Below, piece by piece: positions 1 to 10,920 of a stretch of 20,228 nt of DNA (positions within the stretch are counted from its first letter, which is position 1; each line of letters opens with the position of its first letter). The position numbers were made by a program, and so were the translations under genes. The notes below the pieces were generated by a model. That model searched no databases and was not told the DNA's origin. It saw only the letters and a list, made by a program, of their open reading frames with translations. The DNA is taken from positions 1 through 20,228 of IMG/VR virus record IMGVR_UViG_3300025626_001508. The stretch is one strand, 5' to 3'. This DNA comes from a virus.

Positions 1-159
1 AACGCGCAGGGCGTTGAATATGCGGATGAGGTTACGAGCATTACCGCAGAGATTATGGACGTACAGGTATACAACCTAAACGTGTCTGGCAACGACACCC
101 CAGACATAACTGGTAACGACACATATGTTGTCGATAACGTAGTGGTGCATAACAAGTAA
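1..159 (+). CDS. 3' end of a gene ending in a Hint/intein-like domain (partial)
   Basis: Only the last 52 codons are in the window; the reading frame is open from base 1 to a TAA at 157-159. The visible C-terminus has the pattern of the last two conserved blocks of Hint (hedgehog/intein) domains: VYNLNV at residues 24-29, then NDTYVV and finally VVVHNK. The penultimate His50 and Asn51 match the residues that drive Asn cyclisation and C-terminal cleavage in inteins. The residue after Asn is Lys, followed at once by the stop, so there is no Cys, Ser or Thr nucleophile and no real C-extein; full splicing is not expected. It lies immediately upstream of tail-type genes in one operon, so the parent is probably a virion protein whose tail carries an autoprocessing domain. 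The N-terminal catalytic Cys block would be upstream and cannot be checked here. Confidence 0.72.
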   Translation, partial: NAQGVEYADEVTSITAEIMDVQVYNLNVSGNDTPDITGNDTYVVDNVVVHNK

Positions 160-1715
160 TGGCATATATCCCTCTAAGGCAGATAGGTTCTGGCGGTTTA
201 GTGACCGACCAAGACCCATACGATTTGGAACTTACACAGTTTCCGTCCGGTAATAACGTGTCTTTTCACGAAGGACGGTTAGGCAAATCCCTGGGGCATT
301 CCGAAAAAACCACAACACCTGTTGCGCCTACGCATGTTCAGGGTTGGCTTTACGCAGGCAGCAACACCCTGGTCATAGGCTCGCTGCAAAAGCTTTACCG
401 CTTTGATGGTAGCACCATGACAAATGTCACGAAGACATCAGACTCAACAAACTACAGTAACTCCCCTCGCTGGCAGTCTGAGCAGCTTGGTGTTGCGGTG
501 ATGTTTAACAACGGCGCACAAGCCCCGCAGTACATGTTGCCAAACGGCACTAGGTTTGCCGACCTCCCCGCGTGGCCCTCTGGCGTGATAACCAGCAATA
601 TGAAACCATACAAGTCTTTCTTGATTATGGCTGGCTACGAGCAGGGTTCTAACAAGTACCCGTACACCGTCAGATGGTCAGATGCGTATGACCCAACATC
701 TGTGCCTACTGATTACAACATCGCATCTACAACTAACCTAGCCGGAGAGAATGTACTGTCCGGTAACAATGGTGAACTTGTCGATCAACTGACGTTGAAC
801 AACACGCAGATCATTTACGCAGAGCGTGGCGTTTTTGCTATGGACTTTGTCGGCGCACCTTTTGTGTTTAGTTTCCGAGAAGTGTTTGCAGATGACGGAA
901 TCATTAACAGAGGTGCGGTAGCGTCTTTCTTCAACAAACACCTGGTGGTTGGACACAATGACGTATACATCCACGACGGCAACCAGAAAAGATCAATTGT
1001 AGACAAGCGGGTTCGTCAAACTTTCTTCAACGATATCGCAGACACTCGCAGCGTTTATTGCCAGACTATTAACGACAGATCGGAAGTGATGATTTGTTAC
1101 GCAGATTCAGATGCGGCAGATAGTCAGACAGCTAACCGCGCACTTGTTTACAACTGGGCGCAGGACGCATTCACTTTTATCGACCTACCTAATCTACGAG
1201 CCTTGGCGGTATCGGAGGCACTTAACCCCGAAGGCGGCTGGGATGATGCAGTTGGAACCTGGGGTCAGTCCTCTGACTTTTGGTCTAACTCATCTCTGAC
1301 CACTGAGGCAAGCAGCCTTACGATCTTTGGGGCTGGCTATCAGGCGTCACGAATTTTTGAGTTGAACAAAACTCACGGGGCAGCAGGCAATGCGGTTAGC
1401 TCTTTTGTAGAGGCTACAAAAATAGATTTAGACTCTGTACTCCAAAAAGCCACGAATAGCATTAAACAGATTAACGGCATCATGCCGCAGATAGAGGGGC
1501 AGGGGTCGGTCAACATATCCGTTGGTGTTTCTAATTCACCACAGGATGGTGTCGCCTGGCAGTCCACAACGCAGTATAATATTGAGACAGACCATAAGAT
1601 AGATGTTAGAGCGTCTGGCCGCTATTTTGCTCTGAGAATAGAAAGCCAAAGTGCATCAGACTACTGGCGCGTGACTGGTCTCGATATCGATATTAATGAG
1701 GTTGCTAGTCGATGA
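159..1715 (+). CDS. Podovirus-type tail/stabilisation structural protein
   Basis: A 518-residue protein with no signal peptide or membrane segment. The N-terminus (IPLRQIGSGGLVTDQDPYDL, then a GNNVSFHEGRL stretch) resembles a recurrent phage virion family in which a short opening is followed by a polar site where gene products list 'D..PYDL....F..G.NV.F..GR'; family members sit in podovirus tail modules and are often called tail tubular or stabilisation proteins. The remainder is rich in short beta-type repeats with aromatic and Gly residues, consistent with a beta-propeller or beta-rich tail component, but this is inference. The start ATG overlaps the upstream stop (TAATG), and the end overlaps the next gene by four bases, indicating translational coupling. 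The virion role is likely; the exact part of the particle is not certain. Confidence 0.62.
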   Translation: MAYIPLRQIGSGGLVTDQDPYDLELTQFPSGNNVSFHEGRLGKSLGHSEKTTTPVAPTHVQGWLYAGSNTLVIGSLQKLYRFDGSTMTNVTKTSDSTNYSNSPRWQSEQLGVAVMFNNGAQAPQYMLPNGTRFADLPAWPSGVITSNMKPYKSFLIMAGYEQGSNKYPYTVRWSDAYDPTSVPTDYNIASTTNLAGENVLSGNNGELVDQLTLNNTQIIYAERGVFAMDFVGAPFVFSFREVFADDGIINRGAVASFFNKHLVVGHNDVYIHDGNQKRSIVDKRVRQTFFNDIADTRSVYCQTINDRSEVMICYADSDAADSQTANRALVYNWAQDAFTFIDLPNLRALAVSEALNPEGGWDDAVGTWGQSSDFWSNSSLTTEASSLTIFGAGYQASRIFELNKTHGAAGNAVSSFVEATKIDLDSVLQKATNSIKQINGIMPQIEGQGSVNISVGVSNSPQDGVAWQSTTQYNIETDHKIDVRASGRYFALRIESQSASDYWRVTGLDIDINEVASR

Positions 1716-1972: not shown

Positions 1973-3214
1973 ATGGGATTTTCATTCAGCAGTAGTAAAA
2001 GCAAAAACCAATCTAGCAGCAACGCGAACACATATGTTGATCGCAGTCAGCAGCCTTATCTTAATGATATACGGAACCAGGCACAGGCGCTAAACAACCA
2101 AGGCGGTATGCCGGTTGAGGGCGTTGCTGGTCTAAACCCAACGCAACTAAATGCAATGGGCATGGCAAACCAAGGCGGCCAAATGCAGGCGGGCGCTGGC
2201 GCTGATTTGATGGCCCAAGGCAGCGGTCTGACCCAGGGTTCTGGTGCCGCTATGAACTTTGCAAACCAAGCAATGGGCGGTAACGCGGGCCAAGGCATTG
2301 GGACGGCGTTGGGTACTGGTAACCAGTACGCGGGCGGCACGATGAATGTGAACGCTGCCCAGGGCGGCGGCGCTGATTATCAAATGGCCGGACGAATGGG
2401 TGGCCTGGCTGCTCAGAGCGGCATGGCGCAGAACCAGGGAATCAACACCGGCAACCTTAACAGTTACATGAATAACTCTGTTATTGATGGGCAGGTTGAT
2501 GCCGTAAGCAGAGACATCACTCGTAACCTTCGGGAAAACGAACTGACTGGCAACGCATCTGCAGCTATCGGTGGCGGCAACATGGGTTCGTCGATGAAGC
2601 AAAAACTGGACTTCGGTGCGGGACAGCGGGCTGCAGACAGAATTGCTGACGCTTCAGCTTCGATTAGAGGCAACGCTTACAATCAAGGTCTTGGTATTGA
2701 GGCCGGTAGGGCCACACAAAACGCGCAGCTTTCTCAAGGTACTAATCAGTTTAATGCAGGCGCTCAGAATGCAGCGCAGAGCCAGGGGTACAACATCGGT
2801 GCCTCACAGTTACAAGGCAACCTTGGTCGAAGCCAGCAGGCGGCTATGGGAAATCAAGGCGCATACAACTCAGCGCGGCAGTTCGGTACAGGTGTTGGTT
2901 CAAATGCTTTCAACACCAACCTGCAGAACCAACAGTTCGGTGCCGGTATGGCTCAGAACCTTGGAGCGCAGGGCGTGAGTAACATGCAGGCGGGCCAGAA
3001 CATGATGAACACAGGTATCGGTATGGCCCAGGGCGCTGGAGATCAGCAGCGAGCATACGACCAGCAGTTATTGCAGCAGCAGTACCAGCAGGGTATGGCA
3101 CCGTACAACTCCCTGAATTTCTACAACAGCGTTGTGGGTGCGCCTAATAATCTTAGCACTGCAACCTCACAATCATCTGGCAAATCCAAGTCTGGCGGCT
3201 TTGGTTTCGGTTAA
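1973..3214 (+). CDS. Gly/Gln/Asn/Ala-rich virion protein, probable internal or tail-associated
   Basis: A 413-residue protein of strongly biased composition: Gly, Gln, Asn, Ala and Met dominate from residue ~35 to ~385, with many short imperfect motifs of the type NQG, GAQN, AQG and MGNQG. The two ends differ from the middle: both carry Ser/Lys-rich tags, MGFSFSSSKSKNQSSS at the N-terminus and SSGKSKSGGFGFG at the C-terminus. A more regular stretch at ~165-215 (SYMNNSVIDGQVDAVSRDITRNL and the following helix) could be the folded core. Proteins of this style occur beside internal/ejection protein genes of podoviruses. A weak AGGA lies eight bases before the ATG. No enzymatic motif is visible; function is inferred only from position and composition. 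Confidence 0.5.
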   Translation: MGFSFSSSKSKNQSSSNANTYVDRSQQPYLNDIRNQAQALNNQGGMPVEGVAGLNPTQLNAMGMANQGGQMQAGAGADLMAQGSGLTQGSGAAMNFANQAMGGNAGQGIGTALGTGNQYAGGTMNVNAAQGGGADYQMAGRMGGLAAQSGMAQNQGINTGNLNSYMNNSVIDGQVDAVSRDITRNLRENELTGNASAAIGGGNMGSSMKQKLDFGAGQRAADRIADASASIRGNAYNQGLGIEAGRATQNAQLSQGTNQFNAGAQNAAQSQGYNIGASQLQGNLGRSQQAAMGNQGAYNSARQFGTGVGSNAFNTNLQNQQFGAGMAQNLGAQGVSNMQAGQNMMNTGIGMAQGAGDQQRAYDQQLLQQQYQQGMAPYNSLNFYNSVVGAPNNLSTATSQSSGKSKSGGFGFG

Positions 3215-3226
3215 GGAGTAATATTA

Positions 3227-4420
3227 ATGGCAGGTTATTTCGACATGCTGCGCGACCCTGATGAGAATGATCAGGGTCAGTTGGACACAGCCAACTACAA
3301 CGCTGACGTTACAAAAAACTTTAACTCTCAGATTGAGGACATACCTCCGCAGGTTGCACAGTCCCCCGAAGAAAATGCTTTATACAAGCAGGCGGGCTAC
3401 ATCCCTGGCGCAGAGCCAAACACATGGGTCACACCTATGCGTGGATCGCTGCAAAAAATGCAGCAACGGGAACAGCAGACTCAGCTTGCTAGAGACGCGG
3501 CGTATGAGAAAACGCACGGATCGACCCTGTTTAAGATCGGAGACTCACTAGCTGATGCAGGCCGCTTTTTCATGTCTCCACTATTCTGGTTGTCTGGTGA
3601 AGACACGACTAAGTACGACCCTTCTGCGGTATTGGAAACTGGATACCGAAAGCAGTTTGATTCATCAATTGCGTACAGAGAGGCTTTGTACCAAAAGCAG
3701 TTGAAGTCTAGAGATGCCAGAGACCTTTATCGGAACAACCTAAACACCTCAAACATCCAGAATCAGGTGCAGCAATATAACGCCACCGTACCAAAAAGCA
3801 CACAAGGGCAGTTGGTGTTTGACTACGCCCGTCTTAATGGCCGCATGGATGACTTTAATTCCAGAGACCCTCTCAAATTGCAGAAGCTTACGCGAGAAGC
3901 AAGGGTTAACGCGGGGCAAGGTAAGTTTGTTGGGCGCGACAATAGGTTTATGGAAAAACAAACATACGACGATCTAACAGTAGTTGGAAAGAGATTCAGA
4001 GACGTCAGCGAAGACATTGGCGCTGCGTACATGAACTACCGACAACTGATAAAAGCGTTAGACGCGCAGACAGGTATAGGTGATATCTCCGCTGTATTTA
4101 ACTATATGAAGACGCTCGACCCAGACTCTGTTGTTAGGGAAGGTGAGTTTGCGTTAGCGGAAGGCGCTGCTGGATATTTCTCTCGAATACAAAACATTTT
4201 GAAAAAGGCGAAAGAAGGTACTGGACTTACCCCTAAAGCAAGAGCGGAGATGCGTAACCTGGCGACAGACCTTATTGAGACCTACGAAGATAAGTACGAG
4301 TCGGTTCGTGATCAAGAGGAAGCGGGTATCAGATACTTGTCAGACAATGACGAAGATGTAACAAACTTCTTGGGTGATTTTAAACAGTTATATCCCAACG
4401 CAACAATCGAACCTATTTAA
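3227..4420 (+). CDS. Hypothetical virion protein, likely internal/ejection protein
   Basis: A 397-residue, charged, mostly helical-looking protein preceded by a strong AAGGAG site at 3213-3218, eight bases from the ATG. The N-terminal 100 residues are polar; residues ~101-124 contain the only hydrophobic stretch (LFKIGDSLADAGRFFMSPLF followed by WLSG), then a long helical region with many Arg, Gln and Glu residues. No signal peptide and no catalytic motif seen. It sits between a low-complexity virion protein and a 730-residue Ala/Gly-rich protein, the place where podoviruses keep their internal core proteins. I do not recognise the family with confidence; the ejection role is inferred from context. 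Confidence 0.5.
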   Translation: MAGYFDMLRDPDENDQGQLDTANYNADVTKNFNSQIEDIPPQVAQSPEENALYKQAGYIPGAEPNTWVTPMRGSLQKMQQREQQTQLARDAAYEKTHGSTLFKIGDSLADAGRFFMSPLFWLSGEDTTKYDPSAVLETGYRKQFDSSIAYREALYQKQLKSRDARDLYRNNLNTSNIQNQVQQYNATVPKSTQGQLVFDYARLNGRMDDFNSRDPLKLQKLTREARVNAGQGKFVGRDNRFMEKQTYDDLTVVGKRFRDVSEDIGAAYMNYRQLIKALDAQTGIGDISAVFNYMKTLDPDSVVREGEFALAEGAAGYFSRIQNILKKAKEGTGLTPKARAEMRNLATDLIETYEDKYESVRDQEEAGIRYLSDNDEDVTNFLGDFKQLYPNATIEPI

Positions 4421-4431
4421 AGGTGTGTTAA

Positions 4432-6624
4432 ATGTCTCAAGCAAAAATTAACGGTCAGATAGTAGACGTACCTGACAATTTCTTTGAAATGTCTCCACGA
4501 GAGCAGCAAAAGTTTGCAAACCGAACAGCGGCCAGGCAAACATCTGGCAACCCCAGCCAGATGATGCAGGACATCACCGCATACGGTAGATACTTGGAGC
4601 GTCAGGATATTAAAAACGCTGTGGCAGACAACAACAGCCTAACTGACTTTGCGTTATCTGCGGGTGTTGGCGTAAATAAGTTTGCTATGGGTGCTGCTGA
4701 CCTGCTTGGATTTGGCCCCAGCGAGCAGACAGCAAGGCAGCTTGAGACTGTCGATAGCGTGTTGGCAGAGCAGTCGCCAACGGCAAACTTCACGGGTCGC
4801 ATGGCAGGTGCTACCGCAGCAGCAATTCCTACAGCAGTTGCGGCAACAATGGCGGCCCCAGAAGCGTCTTTAGGTGTATTGGGGCGTGGTGTAGTAAGCG
4901 GTTTAACGGGCGCGGCAGATGGTTTTCTGGAACTGCCTTTCTCTGACGAGTCGCGCCTTGGCAACACCGTCACTGGCGGCGTGTCTGGCGTAGCAAGCGA
5001 GGGCTTAATAACTGCGCTTCAGCAGACCATAAAGCGTATACCGTTTGGCGCACTAGTTGATCGAGCAGTAGGGCTGAGTGATACAATAAAAGACAAAGCC
5101 GCTCAAGTTTTTAAAGACGCCGGATACGAGTACGACGCATTAAAGCAAACGACCAGAGATATCTTGGAAAGCATTGGTCGCAGCGATGACGTAGACGTTG
5201 CAATAAAAAACGCAATGGAAAACGAGCAGGGCTTTAAGCTAACCGCCGGTGAGGCCAGCCAAGACTTTGATCAGATAGGCAAAGAGCAGGACGCGGTTCG
5301 CAGTTCTGGTGAAGCGGGAGCTATCCTGCGTGATTTTAAAACTGAGCAAAACCGTGACATAACAACGGCTTCAGACGATTTGGCTGCGGCTGCTGGCGGT
5401 AACACCGCGAACAATCAGGAGCAGGTCGGTGAGGTTTTGAAGGCCGCGCTTTTGTCTGCCAAAGACGATGATCGCAACGCTGTAAAAATTGCATATGACG
5501 CAGCCCAGCAGTTGGCTGAAAACAGCGACATACAGATGCCACTGGATCAAGATGTAATCAGCAAGGTTTTCTATGACCTAGCCGAAAAGAACATTGGCAC
5601 ACACGGCGGTCTTCTGAAAGATATCGGTAGGGAACTCGCCAGGTATGACGTTCTAGACCCCGAAGAGTTCAACGCTGACCTGCCGTTTGCATTACCTGGT
5701 GGAGACAGTGGGTCTCTGAGTGTCGCTAACACAGAGCAGTTCATTCAGTTCTTAAACAGTAAATACACAGAGGGTGATTCAGTAGGCAATGCCATATTGG
5801 CACAAGTAAAGCAGGCCATAAGCGAAAATGCCGATACGGTTATAGCGCGTGGAATAGAAGGCGCTGACTCTGAGGCAGCAAAAGCATTTATAAAACAAGC
5901 CAGAAAGGCCCGTGAACTTAACAAGGGTTACCACGACCTGTGGGAAGCAAAAGATGTTCTGCAAGAAACCACAGGGCTAAAAGTAGGCACGGACACGCCG
6001 GTTAGGTCTGCAAGCGAGATGGTCAAACCTATAATGAAAAACCCAGAAAACGCTCGCAAGGTTATCGAAGAACTGACCGCCCGTGGAAACGTAGCCGCAG
6101 TAAACGACCTCAGAACATTTGTTTTAAAAGATATGTTTGATCTTTCGTTGAAACCAAATGTCGATGGCTCTGACACACCGTTCTTCTCAGGTTCTGCGTT
6201 GTCTACCTACATCAAGAAAAACTCAGATGTGTTGCAGGAAGTTCTCACGCCAGAACAGTTTGCCAATCTCAAAGGCTTTGAGTCTCAGGTAAGCAGGGCG
6301 ACTAAGCCACCACCTGGGACAGTTAACCACTCAAACACCGCATCGAAAATTTTACAGGCTGTATTCAATGTTTTGAGTTTAGGCCAGTACGGCATGGCTG
6401 GTGGTGCTGAGTTTAAAGCGGCGGCTGCTAACAGCACCATCAAGGACGCTATTAAATCTAATGGCCGCGCCAACATTGATTACATACTAAAGCTGGACGG
6501 CAACCACGTTAAGTTAAACACGGTTCTAAAGCAGGCACTGGATCAGATGACCTTTTCTGATGAAGCGGCTCTGTCGGAAGAAGACGAAGAAATTTCGACC
6601 AGGAGAGGGGTTTTAGCAGAATGA
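4432..6624 (+). CDS. Large internal virion/DNA-ejection-like protein
   Basis: A 730-residue protein with an AAAGGTG ribosome site at 4419-4425. After a polar N-terminus (1-70), residues ~72-95 and especially ~121-195 are Ala/Gly-rich, weakly hydrophobic segments (MAGATAAAIPTAVAATMAAP, GRGVVSGLTGAADGFLELPF, TGGVSGVASEGLITALQ) of the type that can insert into or traverse membranes. From ~200 to the end it is charged and helical. This layout, soluble protein with amphipathic Ala/Gly stretches beside other core proteins, is typical of podovirus ejection proteins such as the P22 and T7 internal proteins, although I see no transglycosylase motif. Its stop overlaps the next start (ATGA). Role inferred, not proven. 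Confidence 0.52.
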   Translation: MSQAKINGQIVDVPDNFFEMSPREQQKFANRTAARQTSGNPSQMMQDITAYGRYLERQDIKNAVADNNSLTDFALSAGVGVNKFAMGAADLLGFGPSEQTARQLETVDSVLAEQSPTANFTGRMAGATAAAIPTAVAATMAAPEASLGVLGRGVVSGLTGAADGFLELPFSDESRLGNTVTGGVSGVASEGLITALQQTIKRIPFGALVDRAVGLSDTIKDKAAQVFKDAGYEYDALKQTTRDILESIGRSDDVDVAIKNAMENEQGFKLTAGEASQDFDQIGKEQDAVRSSGEAGAILRDFKTEQNRDITTASDDLAAAAGGNTANNQEQVGEVLKAALLSAKDDDRNAVKIAYDAAQQLAENSDIQMPLDQDVISKVFYDLAEKNIGTHGGLLKDIGRELARYDVLDPEEFNADLPFALPGGDSGSLSVANTEQFIQFLNSKYTEGDSVGNAILAQVKQAISENADTVIARGIEGADSEAAKAFIKQARKARELNKGYHDLWEAKDVLQETTGLKVGTDTPVRSASEMVKPIMKNPENARKVIEELTARGNVAAVNDLRTFVLKDMFDLSLKPNVDGSDTPFFSGSALSTYIKKNSDVLQEVLTPEQFANLKGFESQVSRATKPPPGTVNHSNTASKILQAVFNVLSLGQYGMAGGAEFKAAAANSTIKDAIKSNGRANIDYILKLDGNHVKLNTVLKQALDQMTFSDEAALSEEDEEISTRRGVLAE

Positions 6625-7160
6625 TTGATGCACTTGTAGGAATGATCTCAGGGGCCACTGATGCCATCGGTAGTAAGATGGCTACTTTTGAGTCTGCAAT
6701 AGACAAGGTCTACGACGATTCCCCCCTGGGCAAAGTGGAGAAGGCATTTGATAGCGTGATCCCTGACGCCTTTAAAGGTGGGAACTATGGGACGGCTCCG
6801 CAAGGTTCAAAAAACATGATGAACTATGCGATGCCTGATTCTCTGACCAACACCTATGTGGATGCCAATGATCAGATGGGTGCGCTGATGTCTCAGTCTG
6901 GAATACTAAACCCCGCAGCCTCACAGCTTCGTAGTGGTGGAGGCATGACCCCGACAAAGATTAATGAAATAAAGCGAATGGAGGAATCTAAAACTGCAGA
7001 GCCTGATCCCTACGCGGAATCTTTGAAACAGGTTGATCAGCAGATCGAAGCCATCCCCACTGGTGTGCCTGCACCTCTTTTGATCGAGGAAGAAGAAACA
7101 GAGAACCAACCTGGCGGCGTGTTAGCAGTCCCTATCCAACCTCAAACCTTTGCGGAGTAA
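6621..7160 (+). CDS. Hypothetical phage protein in the structural operon
   Basis: A 179-residue protein whose ATG overlaps the previous TGA by four bases; AGGAGAGG at 6601-6608 lies inside the upstream gene, rather far from the start, so re-initiation by coupled translation is likely. The first ~50 residues look helical (MIDALVGMISGATDAIGSKM and FESAIDKVYDD), the middle is Asn/Gly/Ser-rich, and the C-terminus is acidic and proline-rich. No domain recognised. By position it is a minor virion or assembly protein. Confidence 0.5.
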   Translation: MIDALVGMISGATDAIGSKMATFESAIDKVYDDSPLGKVEKAFDSVIPDAFKGGNYGTAPQGSKNMMNYAMPDSLTNTYVDANDQMGALMSQSGILNPAASQLRSGGGMTPTKINEIKRMEESKTAEPDPYAESLKQVDQQIEAIPTGVPAPLLIEEEETENQPGGVLAVPIQPQTFAE

Positions 7161-7163
7161 TAG

Positions 7164-9437
7164 ATGTCAGTTTTCGCTTCAGTCGCAAGAAACATAAGCG
7201 ACAGTAGATCAAAAAGAAATATAGGTATTGCGGCGGTTGGTGCAGGAACAGTCCTGGCCCCTCAAGAATCTGAAGCGTCTGTTGCCAAGTTGGCTGCGCG
7301 AGGCATGGAGTTGGTTCCCAACATCGACCCAGAGGACACACGAGTTGGCGAATATTTTTTGCGGCAGGGTGATGACACTAAAAGCATTGGGTCTTTGAAA
7401 ACAGATTACGCTATTGAATCTGGATTTGATGAGGGTTACATGTCCTCTCTGGATACTGAGATTGCCCCAGGTTTCCGTCGGCAGGGTCTGGCAGGTGAAA
7501 TGTATGATGCTGCTGAAGAGATAAGCGGCAACAAGCTGGTGCCTTCCACACATTTATCTATGGACGGGGGGTACATGTGGAATGCCAGAGACCCCAAGTT
7601 GCTTGAGCAAGTACATGAAAAAATGGGGCCGGAAAACTACCAGCGTATAGAAGACATCTTATACCCTGACGGAAAGCCGCATCCTAATGCGGTTAAGCTT
7701 CGAGGATTCGATAGAAAATACGCCGCGCCTGCTGCAACTGCCACCGCCGGTGGTGCTGGTGCCTACGCTGCTGCTTACAACCACCCCGCATACAGTCACC
7801 CTGGTGATGGGGCGCTAGACACAAACGCTTTAGCGTTAGTGCCTGAGATGATTTCCGCTACCGTCAACGACATATACAAGTACGGCAAGCAACTTGTCAC
7901 GGGTGAGCAGTCAGATGAAAAGCTGCTGCCATTCCCCGATACCACTGACGGGGACGCCCAGAAGATAAAAGATGCTGTTGCTTCAGCAGCAGACTGGGTT
8001 CTTAACTATAAGAACGAAGGGTTTTTGATGCCTGAAGGTGGCGCGTCAGTGACGGACGGGATTACCGCTGCGGTGTCTGCGTACCAGGAACGTGTTCGAC
8101 CAGTGCTGCAAGACGCACTTGGTGAAGATGGAACTTTGAGGTTTGAAGCAACAGGCATCTTGGCTGCTACGTTGTTCCCCGGTAAAAATGCCGGGAAAAT
8201 TGCCAGCACCTCTGGCGATCTCCCAGCGCCAAGGACTCGCGCAGAAGTAGAAGCCGCAGCATCTCCCGACTTTGGTGAGGTGGTGCAAACCAGAAAAGCA
8301 GGAGAGACTGTAGAAGTACCCGCCCTTGATATGCAGACAGCGGCAGGATACCCCGCGAACCCAAACGTCCCGTTGTTGTTAGAGGGTGGCTATGGTGATT
8401 CTGTTTCAAAACAATCAATCACAGCGAACCGAAACAAATACGAAAACAACCCACTGTTTAGAGAGATGCAAGATCAAAGAGCAAAAGGGGGGAGGTTCAC
8501 AACTACAGATGACTTGTTCGCGCAATCTGCTACATATGAAAATCTGGTCGATAAACCTGTGATGATTATCCCTGCTGATAAAACAGCGGGGTCGGGCTAT
8601 GTAGACAGGCTGGCGGGCAGAGACATTAAACCCATACAACTCCAAGGTGGGGCGTTTTTCGGGGATCGATATGGTCAGTGGCAAAGTATGGAGGGGGCTG
8701 CAAGAGACAAACAGCGTCATGCTTTGAACGTGGCAGAAGATGCAAAGCAACTACCTATAGGTCTTTTCCAAGGGATGGGGCATCCAGGATCAAACTTTTC
8801 GACAATGCCCTCTGAAGGAATACTCGCATATATAGATGCTATGGGTGGGTTAGACCGCGAGGGTATCGACTATGTCGATAGGGTCATGGCGAGTCTTCCG
8901 AACAAAGGAGATACAAAAGGCGTGTCGGCTGATTGGCCTGGCTACGAATCTACAGATCAAATGCGCCGCTTCTTGTTTGACACGGATTCGCCCAAAGGTA
9001 ATTCGACACTGGGCGCTAGACGAAAAGCGTTTGTGCCTAAGATGATGAACGTAGATATGCAAGACTACGGACTGTTGCCGCCCAATGATCTCTACGCCCC
9101 TATAAATGAACAAGTTCTCAGAAACGTACCATCAGGTTATGTCGGTCTTCGTGGGGCGCAGTTCACTGACACCCCAGTAGACAAATTAACTCCCGATGAT
9201 TACGCATTCCACCGAAGCTACGACACGCCCATACCGTTTTCAAACGTACTGGCTTTCGATCAGCCCATGATTCCGTGGCACGTTATGTTCCAAGATGCGG
9301 CTTTAGCACGGGCAGAAAAACCAGCGCCCCGTGCAGCGAGAAGTTTCACTACGAGTGGGTCTGACTATCAGATGTTTAGAGAGGAAGATCTGAATCGAGT
9401 GAATCAGTACATAGAAAGCCTTCCAAAACTAAAATAG
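7164..9437 (+). CDS. Large virion-type polyvalent protein with N-terminal GNAT-like domain
   Basis: A 757-residue protein and the last gene of the late operon, with GGAG at 7154-7157 before the ATG. Residues 19-32 form a small hydrophobic segment (NIGIAAVGAGTVLA). Residues ~62-180 resemble a GNAT acetyltransferase: an expected beta-strand/turn is followed by IAPGFRRQGLAGEMYDAAEE, in which R105-x-x-G108-x-A110 matches the acetyl-CoA pyrophosphate-binding motif A. A second Ala/Gly hydrophobic stretch lies at ~187-204. Residues ~455-510 (KPVMIIPADKTAGSGYVDRL and QLQGGAFFGDRYGQW) look like an associated domain found in large multidomain 'polyvalent' proteins of phages, by memory of the pattern and not by search. 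Such proteins can be packaged and delivered with DNA. Substrate unknown. Its 3' end overlaps the antisense gene at 9376-9570. Confidence 0.5.
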   Translation: MSVFASVARNISDSRSKRNIGIAAVGAGTVLAPQESEASVAKLAARGMELVPNIDPEDTRVGEYFLRQGDDTKSIGSLKTDYAIESGFDEGYMSSLDTEIAPGFRRQGLAGEMYDAAEEISGNKLVPSTHLSMDGGYMWNARDPKLLEQVHEKMGPENYQRIEDILYPDGKPHPNAVKLRGFDRKYAAPAATATAGGAGAYAAAYNHPAYSHPGDGALDTNALALVPEMISATVNDIYKYGKQLVTGEQSDEKLLPFPDTTDGDAQKIKDAVASAADWVLNYKNEGFLMPEGGASVTDGITAAVSAYQERVRPVLQDALGEDGTLRFEATGILAATLFPGKNAGKIASTSGDLPAPRTRAEVEAAASPDFGEVVQTRKAGETVEVPALDMQTAAGYPANPNVPLLLEGGYGDSVSKQSITANRNKYENNPLFREMQDQRAKGGRFTTTDDLFAQSATYENLVDKPVMIIPADKTAGSGYVDRLAGRDIKPIQLQGGAFFGDRYGQWQSMEGAARDKQRHALNVAEDAKQLPIGLFQGMGHPGSNFSTMPSEGILAYIDAMGGLDREGIDYVDRVMASLPNKGDTKGVSADWPGYESTDQMRRFLFDTDSPKGNSTLGARRKAFVPKMMNVDMQDYGLLPPNDLYAPINEQVLRNVPSGYVGLRGAQFTDTPVDKLTPDDYAFHRSYDTPIPFSNVLAFDQPMIPWHVMFQDAALARAEKPAPRAARSFTTSGSDYQMFREEDLNRVNQYIESLPKLK

Positions 9438-9835: not shown

Positions 9836-9877
9836 GAAATCACAATTCACAGTATAAAATATAAAAACGCAGGGTGG
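9829..9877 (+). promoter_or_regulatory. Integrase promoter with overlapping palindrome and ribosome site
   Basis: GTGACT (9830-9835, four of six to TTGACA) and TATAAA (9853-9858) are separated by 17 bases, giving a start near 9865. The -35 lies inside TGTGA-N6-TCACA (9829-9844), a perfect dyad with the same form as the CRP consensus and also one of the TGTGACT repeats. AGGGTGG at 9871-9877 is the ribosome site, eight bases before the ATG at 9886. The overlap suggests autoregulation by Int or another binder. Confidence 0.5.
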
Positions 9878-9885
9878 ACAATATC

Positions 9886-10920
9886 ATGGCGACATTTACA
9901 GAGAAAAAGACAAAAAAAGGTGAGACCAGGCACCTGGTGCAGATAAGACGAACAGACTTGAAAAAACCAGTCTCTAAAACATTTACGTTGAAAAAAGACG
10001 CTAAAGCTTGGGCCAGAGACACGGAGGCCGCCATAGAACGTGGCGAGTTTAGCCAAGATGAAACAAACTTTGGGTTGCTGTGCCGCAGGTATTCATCTGA
10101 GTTGTGGCCTATCCAAAAGTGGGGTCGAACTAAGAGCGACCACATAGAGTACCTCAGACGCTCCCCTCTAGGGCGTTTACAATTAAGAGACCTAACCACA
10201 AAGGCTATTATGGATTACGCCATGGGGCGGGGGAGACACCCTTCTACGGTTATGGGTGAGATGATTCAACTGGGCGTGATCTTGTCTACTGCAAAAGATA
10301 TGTGGGAATTAGACTTCGACCTGGAAGTTTATCGGAAGGCGCACAGAACTTTAAAGCGTATCGGTGTGATTGGTGAGAGCGATCACAGAGACACGCGCTG
10401 CACTGATAAAGAACTAGATTTGATACTGGCGAATGTTGGTTACACCAAAATGCCTATTGCTGACCTGGCTAGATTCGCTATTCACACCGCAATGCGTAGA
10501 GCAGAGGTTGTACGGCTTGAATGGGATGATCTTGATCTCACCGAAGGTGAAGAATCCGTTTTAATTAGACGGCGTAAACATCCGAAGAAAAAACGTGATG
10601 AGCGGGTGCCTTTGCTGCCAGAAGCAGTAGAAATTATTAAAAAGCAGATTGCCGCGTCTGGGGATGAGAAGTTTATATTCCCATACGACGGAGACAGCGT
10701 GTCAAACGCATTCAGAAAAGCGCGTGAGAAAGCAGGTGTAGGTGAAATACGCTGGCATGACCTCCGGCACGAAGGATGCAGCCGCTTGTTTGAAAGAGGC
10801 TTAGATGCGATGACAGTGAGCCTGTTCAGCGGTCATAAGGACTTGAACATGCTCAAAAGATACACGCACTTAACACCCAAAAGTGTCCTGTCCCAAATCA
10901 GTCAGTCTTCTCTGAACTGA
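9886..10920 (+). CDS. int: Tyrosine recombinase (phage integrase)
   Basis: Catalyses site-specific recombination between attP and attB through a covalent phosphotyrosine intermediate. The 344-residue protein has an N-terminal arm-binding segment (about 1-60), a core-binding region (about 60-160) and the catalytic domain. Catalytic residues are visible: Arg204 in TAMRRAEV, a Lys in the RRRKHPKKK hairpin near 231-236, His291 and Arg294 in HDLRH, His317 in SGHKDL, and nucleophile Tyr326 in KRYTHL. All are present, so it should be active. I chose ATG 9886 because AGGGTGG lies eight bases upstream; an in-frame GTG at 9874 would overlap that site and add four residues. The gene converges on the leftward early operon, overlapping its last gene by 23 bases. 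Confidence 0.95.
   Translation: MATFTEKKTKKGETRHLVQIRRTDLKKPVSKTFTLKKDAKAWARDTEAAIERGEFSQDETNFGLLCRRYSSELWPIQKWGRTKSDHIEYLRRSPLGRLQLRDLTTKAIMDYAMGRGRHPSTVMGEMIQLGVILSTAKDMWELDFDLEVYRKAHRTLKRIGVIGESDHRDTRCTDKELDLILANVGYTKMPIADLARFAIHTAMRRAEVVRLEWDDLDLTEGEESVLIRRRKHPKKKRDERVPLLPEAVEIIKKQIAASGDEKFIFPYDGDSVSNAFRKAREKAGVGEIRWHDLRHEGCSRLFERGLDAMTVSLFSGHKDLNMLKRYTHLTPKSVLSQISQSSLN

Follow-up and report, generated by a model that had tools for sequence, protein, structure and literature searches.

The locus raises the question of why a protein encoded in a phage tail region should end with the last motifs of a self-processing Hint domain, an intact His-Asn pair, a single lysine and a stop codon. The stretch analyzed here (the window) is a complete virus record of 20,228 bases, and the record begins inside the gene concerned. 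Translation of positions 1..159 (+, frame 1) gave NAQGVEYADEVTSITAEIMDVQVYNLNVSGNDTPDITGNDTYVVDNVVVHNK followed by a stop, i.e., the last 52 residues of a tail-slot protein, encoded by the 3' end of its gene; the C-terminus of this protein is a Hint domain resembling A-type bacterial intein-like (BIL) domains. This segment is identical to positions 5843-6001 of a related locus, L004 (contig IMGVR_UViG_3300025637_000028). Hint block F, VYNLNVSGNDTPDITGNDTYVV, was located at 67..132 (+) by family alignment, which also revealed an insert of eight residues in this block compared with most family members. Block G, NVVVHN, was located at 136..153 (+) from the sequence, with the penultimate His at 148-150 and the terminal Asn at 151-153. 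The sole residue after Asn is the Lys encoded by AAG at 154..156 (+), which is also the family-wide residue at this +1 position, and the stop codon occupies 157-159, so that the first 159 bases end in frame 1 as ...VYNLNVSGNDTPDITGNDTYVVDNVVVHNK-stop. His and Asn were present in every row of both family alignments, for which His-Asn was a selection condition. The stop overlaps the start of the next virion gene by one base (TAATG, 157..161, +), suggesting that the two genes may be translated in a coupled manner. This downstream neighbor (159..1715, +) encodes a 518-aa virion structural protein (phrog_3287; E value, 6e-111).

The 52-residue piece alone matched no Pfam, PHROG or NCBIfam model, and the window by itself is therefore insufficient to prove a Hint domain. 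Because the record starts at base 1 inside the gene and lacks 807 bases (270 residues) of it, the upstream half was read from relatives. Two viral contigs were recovered with the 52 residues as query, and 63 loci with the 518-aa neighbor. L004 is identical to the window over the 156 coding bases and shares 96.3% identity with it across 3.2 kb, and its complete gene (L004:5033-6001) encodes a protein of 322 aa. Based on the near-identity of the two contigs, we infer that the phage of the window has these same 270 residues in the part not covered by the record. The L004 protein is composed of an N-terminal module of approximately 33 aa, a beta-rich middle part predicted with low confidence and a full Hint domain from Cys172 to His320-Asn321-Lys322, in which the block B TxxH residues are Thr230 and His233. 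Copies of the protein were found in L005 (86% identical) and in L053 and L054 (38% identical). The Cys-led first Hint block that the original prediction proposed to look for upstream is present in L004, where Pfam Vint scored 31.1 bits against a cut-off of 27; Vint also exceeded its cut-off for L005, as did Hom_end_hint and NCBIfam intein_Cterm for L054. The dN/dS of the Hint between L004 and L005 was 0.19, similar to that of the remainder of the gene, indicating that the domain is under purifying selection. The dS between the same loci was higher in the Hint gene (0.46) than in the next gene (0.14), as might be expected for a Hint gene exchanged or evolving apart from its neighbors.

An AlphaFold model of the L004 protein was computed from a 56-row alignment of family loci. 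The pLDDT was mostly 92-98 in the Hint part, and residues 35-60 and 84-110 were poorly predicted. The top match by VIA-align was Tetrahymena BIL2 (6y75; Z 21.0, rmsd 1.8 Å over 134 residues, 24% identity), followed by inteins (Z ≤ 18.0), the Hog domain (Z 17.6) and the Clostridium BIL (Z 17.1). Foldseek also ranked BIL2 first (4e-9), and a profile of 56 family members matched BIL2 at 8.5e-17, the Clostridium BIL 2lwy at 2.1e-16 and the first intein at 7e-12. BILs are thus the nearest of the known Hint folds by sequence profile and, less sharply, by fold; going by the profile scores, the family may group with BILs rather than with inteins. Neither a missing N-terminal block nor an unrelated fold, the two outcomes that the original prediction had named as telling against it, was encountered, as block A is present in L004 and PDB Hint structures fit the model with Z up to 21. 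The Hint-like ending on a tail-region protein is therefore real, given the HNK end in the window, the full Hint in L004 and the Hint fold.

The features that define A-type BILs were compared one by one with those of the window and L004. The Hint fold was recovered in the model (BIL2 Z 21.0, 2lwy Z 17.1), and the N-terminal Cys (or Ser) with a block B TxxH is represented in L004 by Cys172, Thr230 and His233, in the part absent from the window record. The C-terminal His-Asn lies at window positions 148-153, and the +1 residue at 154-156 is Lys, in line with the absence of Cys, Ser or Thr from this position in BILs. The domain also occupies a part of its host protein that is variable and not conserved, where relatives carry other C-terminal parts or unrelated fibers. 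Class 1 inteins are expected to possess a C-extein headed by Cys, Ser or Thr at +1, whereas the window has Lys and then the stop; a Hedgehog Hog domain should lack block G and be followed by a sterol-recognition region, whereas block G is intact here and one residue follows; and a B-type BIL should lack the intein-like block G, whereas VVVHN is present. Judged by these sequence and structure features, all of which agree, the domain of the window and L004 is classed as an A-type BIL-like Hint with Lys at +1, Lys(+1), in a phage virion protein, and by sequence it is neither an intein, a Hog domain nor a B-type BIL.

The original prediction had stressed the lack of a +1 nucleophile. This observation stands, because a +1 residue other than Cys, Ser or Thr is a mark of BILs, which mostly cleave (PMC7664689; PMC4031507), but the lone Lys is no accident of the ending. 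A scan for blocks F and G, in which intein-type HN ends were searched with nothing fixed after them, gave at least 120 matches. The +1 residue was Cys, Ser or Thr in 113/113 of the C-extein matches listed, and among seven listed matches with 10 or fewer residues left, six ended in HNK-stop and one in Cys plus eight residues. When exactly one free residue was required ahead of the stop, all 33 true stops listed were preceded by Lys (29 on viral and four on bacterial genome contigs, some being near-copies). In a third scan, block B (HPx.T..GWK[AS]) was the sole fixed element and the C-terminus was left free, so that domains were selected by the block B form and His-Asn, Lys not being a condition. 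Lys(+1) was found in 74 of the 97 His-Asn domains listed (57 internal and 17 terminal), the other residues being Arg (seven), Glu (two), Ala (one), Cys (11) and Ser (two). The counts of these scans include related contigs, and one collection was sampled in depth. Cys1 was present in 77 of 82 Lys(+1) members with an assigned start, and some of the others may have mis-assigned starts. The same ending was recovered from independent scans across viral contigs, and the HNK ending is thus not due to chance. Proteins with an HNK-stop Hint also occurred on bacterial genome contigs assigned to Gracilibacteria, Micavibrio and Proteobacteria UBA6503 (L251, L252 and L253).

Family members are approximately 30% identical to the L004 Hint, indicating that Lys has been kept over a long divergence. 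Lys(+1) is the rule of the family also in internal forms, where 100-850 residues follow it. In a quick tree, members with Lys required five label changes compared with 30 in shuffles, set against Cys/Ser/Thr inteins and a few Arg or Glu members; the tree is based on 147 columns and has many unresolved forks, and it cannot date gains. Terminal and internal forms interchanged at least five times on this tree. With the single exception of L306, which ends in KD, the terminal forms nevertheless have their stop codon immediately behind Lys. Chance truncation would leave tails of mixed length, and Lys therefore seems to be part of the functional unit.

Lys(+1) Hints were found to end or interrupt several types of virion structural or tail protein, namely, DUF4815/phrog_358, Phage-tail_3, phrog_2048 tail and phrog_10938 virion structural proteins, as well as Gly-rich proteins (L317, L351, and L356). 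Many internal ones are placed between Gly-rich linkers. In L351, L356 and L317, the Hint is inserted in polyglycine-rich, fiber-like proteins, which give the impression of adhesins. In L263, L293 and L294, the Hint lies at the extreme N-terminus (M-C-C-F) of a long protein, a mirror image of the window case, and its Lys(+1) is followed by seven Gly. Tandem arrangements also occur: a second Hint start, K-GCFLKGT, directly follows some Lys(+1) Hints, and others are preceded by a Hint ending in HN-R/F. Thus, L282, L296, L315, L338 and L344 have a Lys(+1) Hint and then a second Hint-like start of a different type, CF[LI][KA]GT, before the C-terminus, and in L217, L087, L236, L068 and L219 the first Hint ends in HN plus Arg or Phe and the second starts with CCF and ends in HNK-stop. 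At the VrlC site, L267, L285, L340 and others read Hint-HN-[KR]-(linker)-DP[LIV]AQ[ST]F, whereas the VrlC structural proteins of cyanophages S-SM2, Bellamy, SynMITS9220M01 and S-SSM7 have an uninterrupted W[YV]DPLAQSF and no Hint. SynMITS9220M01_028 likewise lacks the Hint that precedes the IIC domain in L317. Based on these Hint-free homologues, the Hint is optional for the host protein.

The self-processing domain at the end of a tail protein had been called uncommon. This is not borne out, as such domains turn up repeatedly in marine phage contigs, on several virion proteins that are unrelated to each other; they constitute a large family that has apparently gone undescribed. A search of open-licence papers found nothing describing a Lys(+1) family, which is weak evidence of novelty. 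When the L004 and L054 proteins were compared with 50,697 phage records by tblastn, only the N-terminal 33-51 residues or so (Gordonia phages) and a terminase-linked intein end (Serratia phage) were matched. At E 1e-3, an L243-type HNK Hint matched nothing in the set of cultured phages; the matches of other members were mostly helicase or terminase inteins and tail Hints without His-Asn. Two candidate members from cultured phages were rejected: the Hint of Roseobacter phage DSS3P8 gp119 is not HNK, and a Salmonella phage match is an intein start. The family seems to be confined to uncultivated contigs in the data searched by tblastn, a method that can miss distant members. A Hint on a tail protein is not in itself new among cultured phages, as the tail fiber of JWF already carries an annotated Hom_end-associated Hint.

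The gene order of the window places the Hint in a variable tail slot. The gene upstream of the Hint gene in L004 has tail-fiber family matches, and the 518-aa structural protein downstream is homologous to proteins encoded by Pseudomonas podoviruses, among them PaP3 and tf. With the latter protein as a landmark, the slot was located in 63 relatives. It holds either a collar-type fiber or a short protein that shares the N-terminal module of approximately 33 residues ([IL]xVGGTxIxxIxIGSTxINxVxVGxxxVW) and has an unrelated C-terminal part; this module might be an anchor, which is a guess. A Hint was found in the slot only in L004, L005, L053 and L054 among these relatives. Since the C-terminal parts differ among relatives, the tail protein of this slot is variable, and the Hint is one of a number of interchangeable pieces that can form its C-terminus. 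Beyond the structural gene, window positions 1973-9437 (+) encode five large or mid-sized proteins (413, 397, 730, 179, and 757 aa), none of which matched Pfam and of which only the 397-aa protein matched a PHROG, one with no assigned function; the first (413 aa) is rich in Gln, Gly and Asn. A tyrosine integrase (PF00589; E value, 8e-27) is encoded beside the tail genes at 9874-10920 (+), and a replication block follows on the opposite strand, with a SNF2-type helicase, a family A DNA polymerase and a Gp2.5-like ssDNA-binding protein. The integrase and replication block suggest that the window may derive from a temperate podovirus-like phage.

A-type BILs have a His-Asn end without a +1 nucleophile, occur in variable protein regions and are self-cleaving; a thioester forms at Cys1, Asn cyclization causes cleavage and the freed amine can attack the thioester, with cleavage products dominating (PMC4031507; PMC5874633; PMC7765530). 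In BIL2, the N-flank becomes bonded to the side-chain amine of a Lys, and conjugation to other proteins can also take place (PMC8616854). The statement in the original prediction that splicing is unlikely was thus too strong, as A-type BILs without a +1 nucleophile splice at a low level and BIL2 ligates to a Lys side chain. The fold, the catalytic residues, the gene-order position and the conservation of Lys(+1) were established by computation. From the known chemistry of A-type BILs and BIL2, we infer that the Hint is lost through a Cys172 thioester, and its activity, the order of steps and the acceptor are deduced in the same way. In the reading that we consider probable, an active A-type BIL-like Hint separates a tail part of approximately 171 residues via this thioester, with an amine or water as acceptor. 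The domain would act once, on its own polypeptide. Cys172 would attack the Gly171 carbonyl in an N-S acyl shift aided by block B Thr230 and His233, and resolution of the resulting thioester by an amine or water would part the tail part from the Hint. Asn321 could cyclize and free Lys322. The acceptor amine most readily available in the active site would belong either to Lys322 itself or to a lysine in a neighboring virion protein, so that a lysine may depart with the tail part or become attached to it. Lys322 would then either accept the tail part or tune the reaction. The 74 members with Lys argue that this residue may be preferred at +1, and the seven with Arg argue that a positive charge may be enough in some members.

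Several points weigh against this probable reading: an intact active site is no proof of activity, the Gly-Cys N-junction and His-Asn end are also ordinary intein features, and the fate of the 171-residue part could instead be plain hydrolysis or attachment to a target other than Lys. A Hint that is inactive and retained for its fold as a tip or spacer would agree with the lack of any processed product on record and with one terminal member, L251, that has Ser for Cys1, although Ser can still act. This is nonetheless improbable, as the catalytic positions are all intact in the window lineage, Cys1 is kept in 77 of 82 Lys(+1) members and dN/dS is 0.19. It is equally improbable that the domain is used in a Hog-like manner, in which only the N-terminal thioester acts, the tail part passes to an outside nucleophile (lipid, sugar, or another protein) and the C-terminus is idle. 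Hedgehog-type Hints are C-terminal and fit the model with Z 17.6, and the JWF and 2-1 tail fibers have a C-terminal Hint without His-Asn. An idle C-terminus would not need the His-Asn and Lys that the window family keeps to the last residue, however, and no sterol- or ligand-binding extension follows the domain.

The reading as a decayed intein that lost its C-extein, which the terminal position and the missing Cys, Ser or Thr at +1 might bring to mind, is very improbable and was rejected. Every C-extein match listed (113/113) has one of these three residues at +1, and Lys marks a separate group of mini-Hints (five changes versus 30 in shuffles). Random decay should give mixed residues and lengths, whereas all 33 listed single-residue ends are Lys, and the hosts are variable virion proteins rather than the conserved enzyme sites chosen by inteins. 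By this sequence evidence, Lys(+1) is judged not to be a decay product. A further possibility, which we hold to be rather unlikely, is that Lys(+1) is the true catalytic acceptor, its side-chain amine replacing the intein Cys, Ser or Thr and taking the N-flank from the Cys1 thioester in an isopeptide link. Internal members would then splice through Lys, and terminal members would yield the tail part plus Lys or virion cross-links. Such a role would agree with the retention of Lys(+1) at approximately 30% domain identity, internally and terminally and beside exteins that share nothing, and with terminal forms of exactly one residue in all but one case despite the interchanges of form; moreover, BIL2, the nearest solved domain, makes a Lys isopeptide. 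It is opposed by Arg in seven members, a poor acceptor, and Glu or Ala in three, and the open-licence literature searched offered no earlier case of a Lys at precisely this position. Two further points count against the probable reading: BIL2 itself seems, from indirect evidence, to be without Lys at +1, and the role of Lys(+1) could be one of geometry or charge and not that of an acceptor.

Most known BIL domains come from the surface proteins of bacteria, with a single ciliate locus in addition, and what they are for is a matter of debate. A virion family that recurs and whose Lys(+1) is fixed offers a natural setting for a BIL role in tail maturation, adhesin variation or cross-linking, and phages with these Hints may use them to trim their tail parts or to link them chemically. 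The terminal form seen in the window is the simplest case of a Lys(+1) Hint; as it has no C-extein, any need for Lys lies in the chemistry or in the domain itself. It is doubtful, though worth stating, that across this large phage virion family Lys(+1) receives the N-flank from the Cys1 thioester on its side chain, giving isopeptide-linked tail proteins, cross-linked fibers or a covalent handle to other proteins. If true, a Lys-acceptor Hint would be a mechanistic class absent from the literature searched and built into phage particles, and a Lys that accepts the N-part would make a compact, enzyme-free domain for protein-to-lysine ligation.

Compared with known systems, the Hedgehog Hog domain (PDB 1at0) is likewise a C-terminal Hint that cleaves via an N-terminal thioester (Z 17.6), but it has a sterol-recognition region and no His-Asn end of the intein type. 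Phage class 1 inteins, which occur in terminase, helicase and other genes, share the fold and blocks A, B, F and G; they differ in the Cys, Ser or Thr at +1 of all 113 C-extein matches listed, in being usually larger with an endonuclease and in their separate tree group. The tail fibers of Achromobacter phages JWF and 2-1 and of Providencia phage PSTNGR1 also have a Cys1-bearing Hint in a tail-region protein, at its C-terminus or close to it, but these end in VNGYLMTAG... or VNGYLVSSM..., without His-Asn-Lys and thus without an Asn-cyclization end. In JWF (L255) and 2-1 (L366), the His-Asn-less Hint fiber lies two genes before a radical SAM gene of the sulfatase-maturating type, possibly a further modification system. 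BIL2 from the BUBL1 polyubiquitin locus of Tetrahymena thermophila (PDB 6y75, 6tmm) is the closest solved domain by profile and fold, lacks a +1 nucleophile and links its N-flank to Lys side chains; it differs in being eukaryotic, in its ubiquitin-like flanking domains and in a +1 residue that, indirectly, seems not to be Lys. The Clostridium thermocellum BIL (PDB 2lwy) is also a mini-Hint without endonuclease, with Cys1, a TxxH block B, a terminal His-Asn and a +1 residue other than Cys, Ser or Thr, and sits in variable proteins (profile E value, 2.1e-16; Z 17.1; 31% identity in the aligned core). A-type BILs such as 2lwy have varied +1 residues, whereas Lys is conserved in the present family, whose hosts are phage virion proteins and whose window form ends one residue past Asn.
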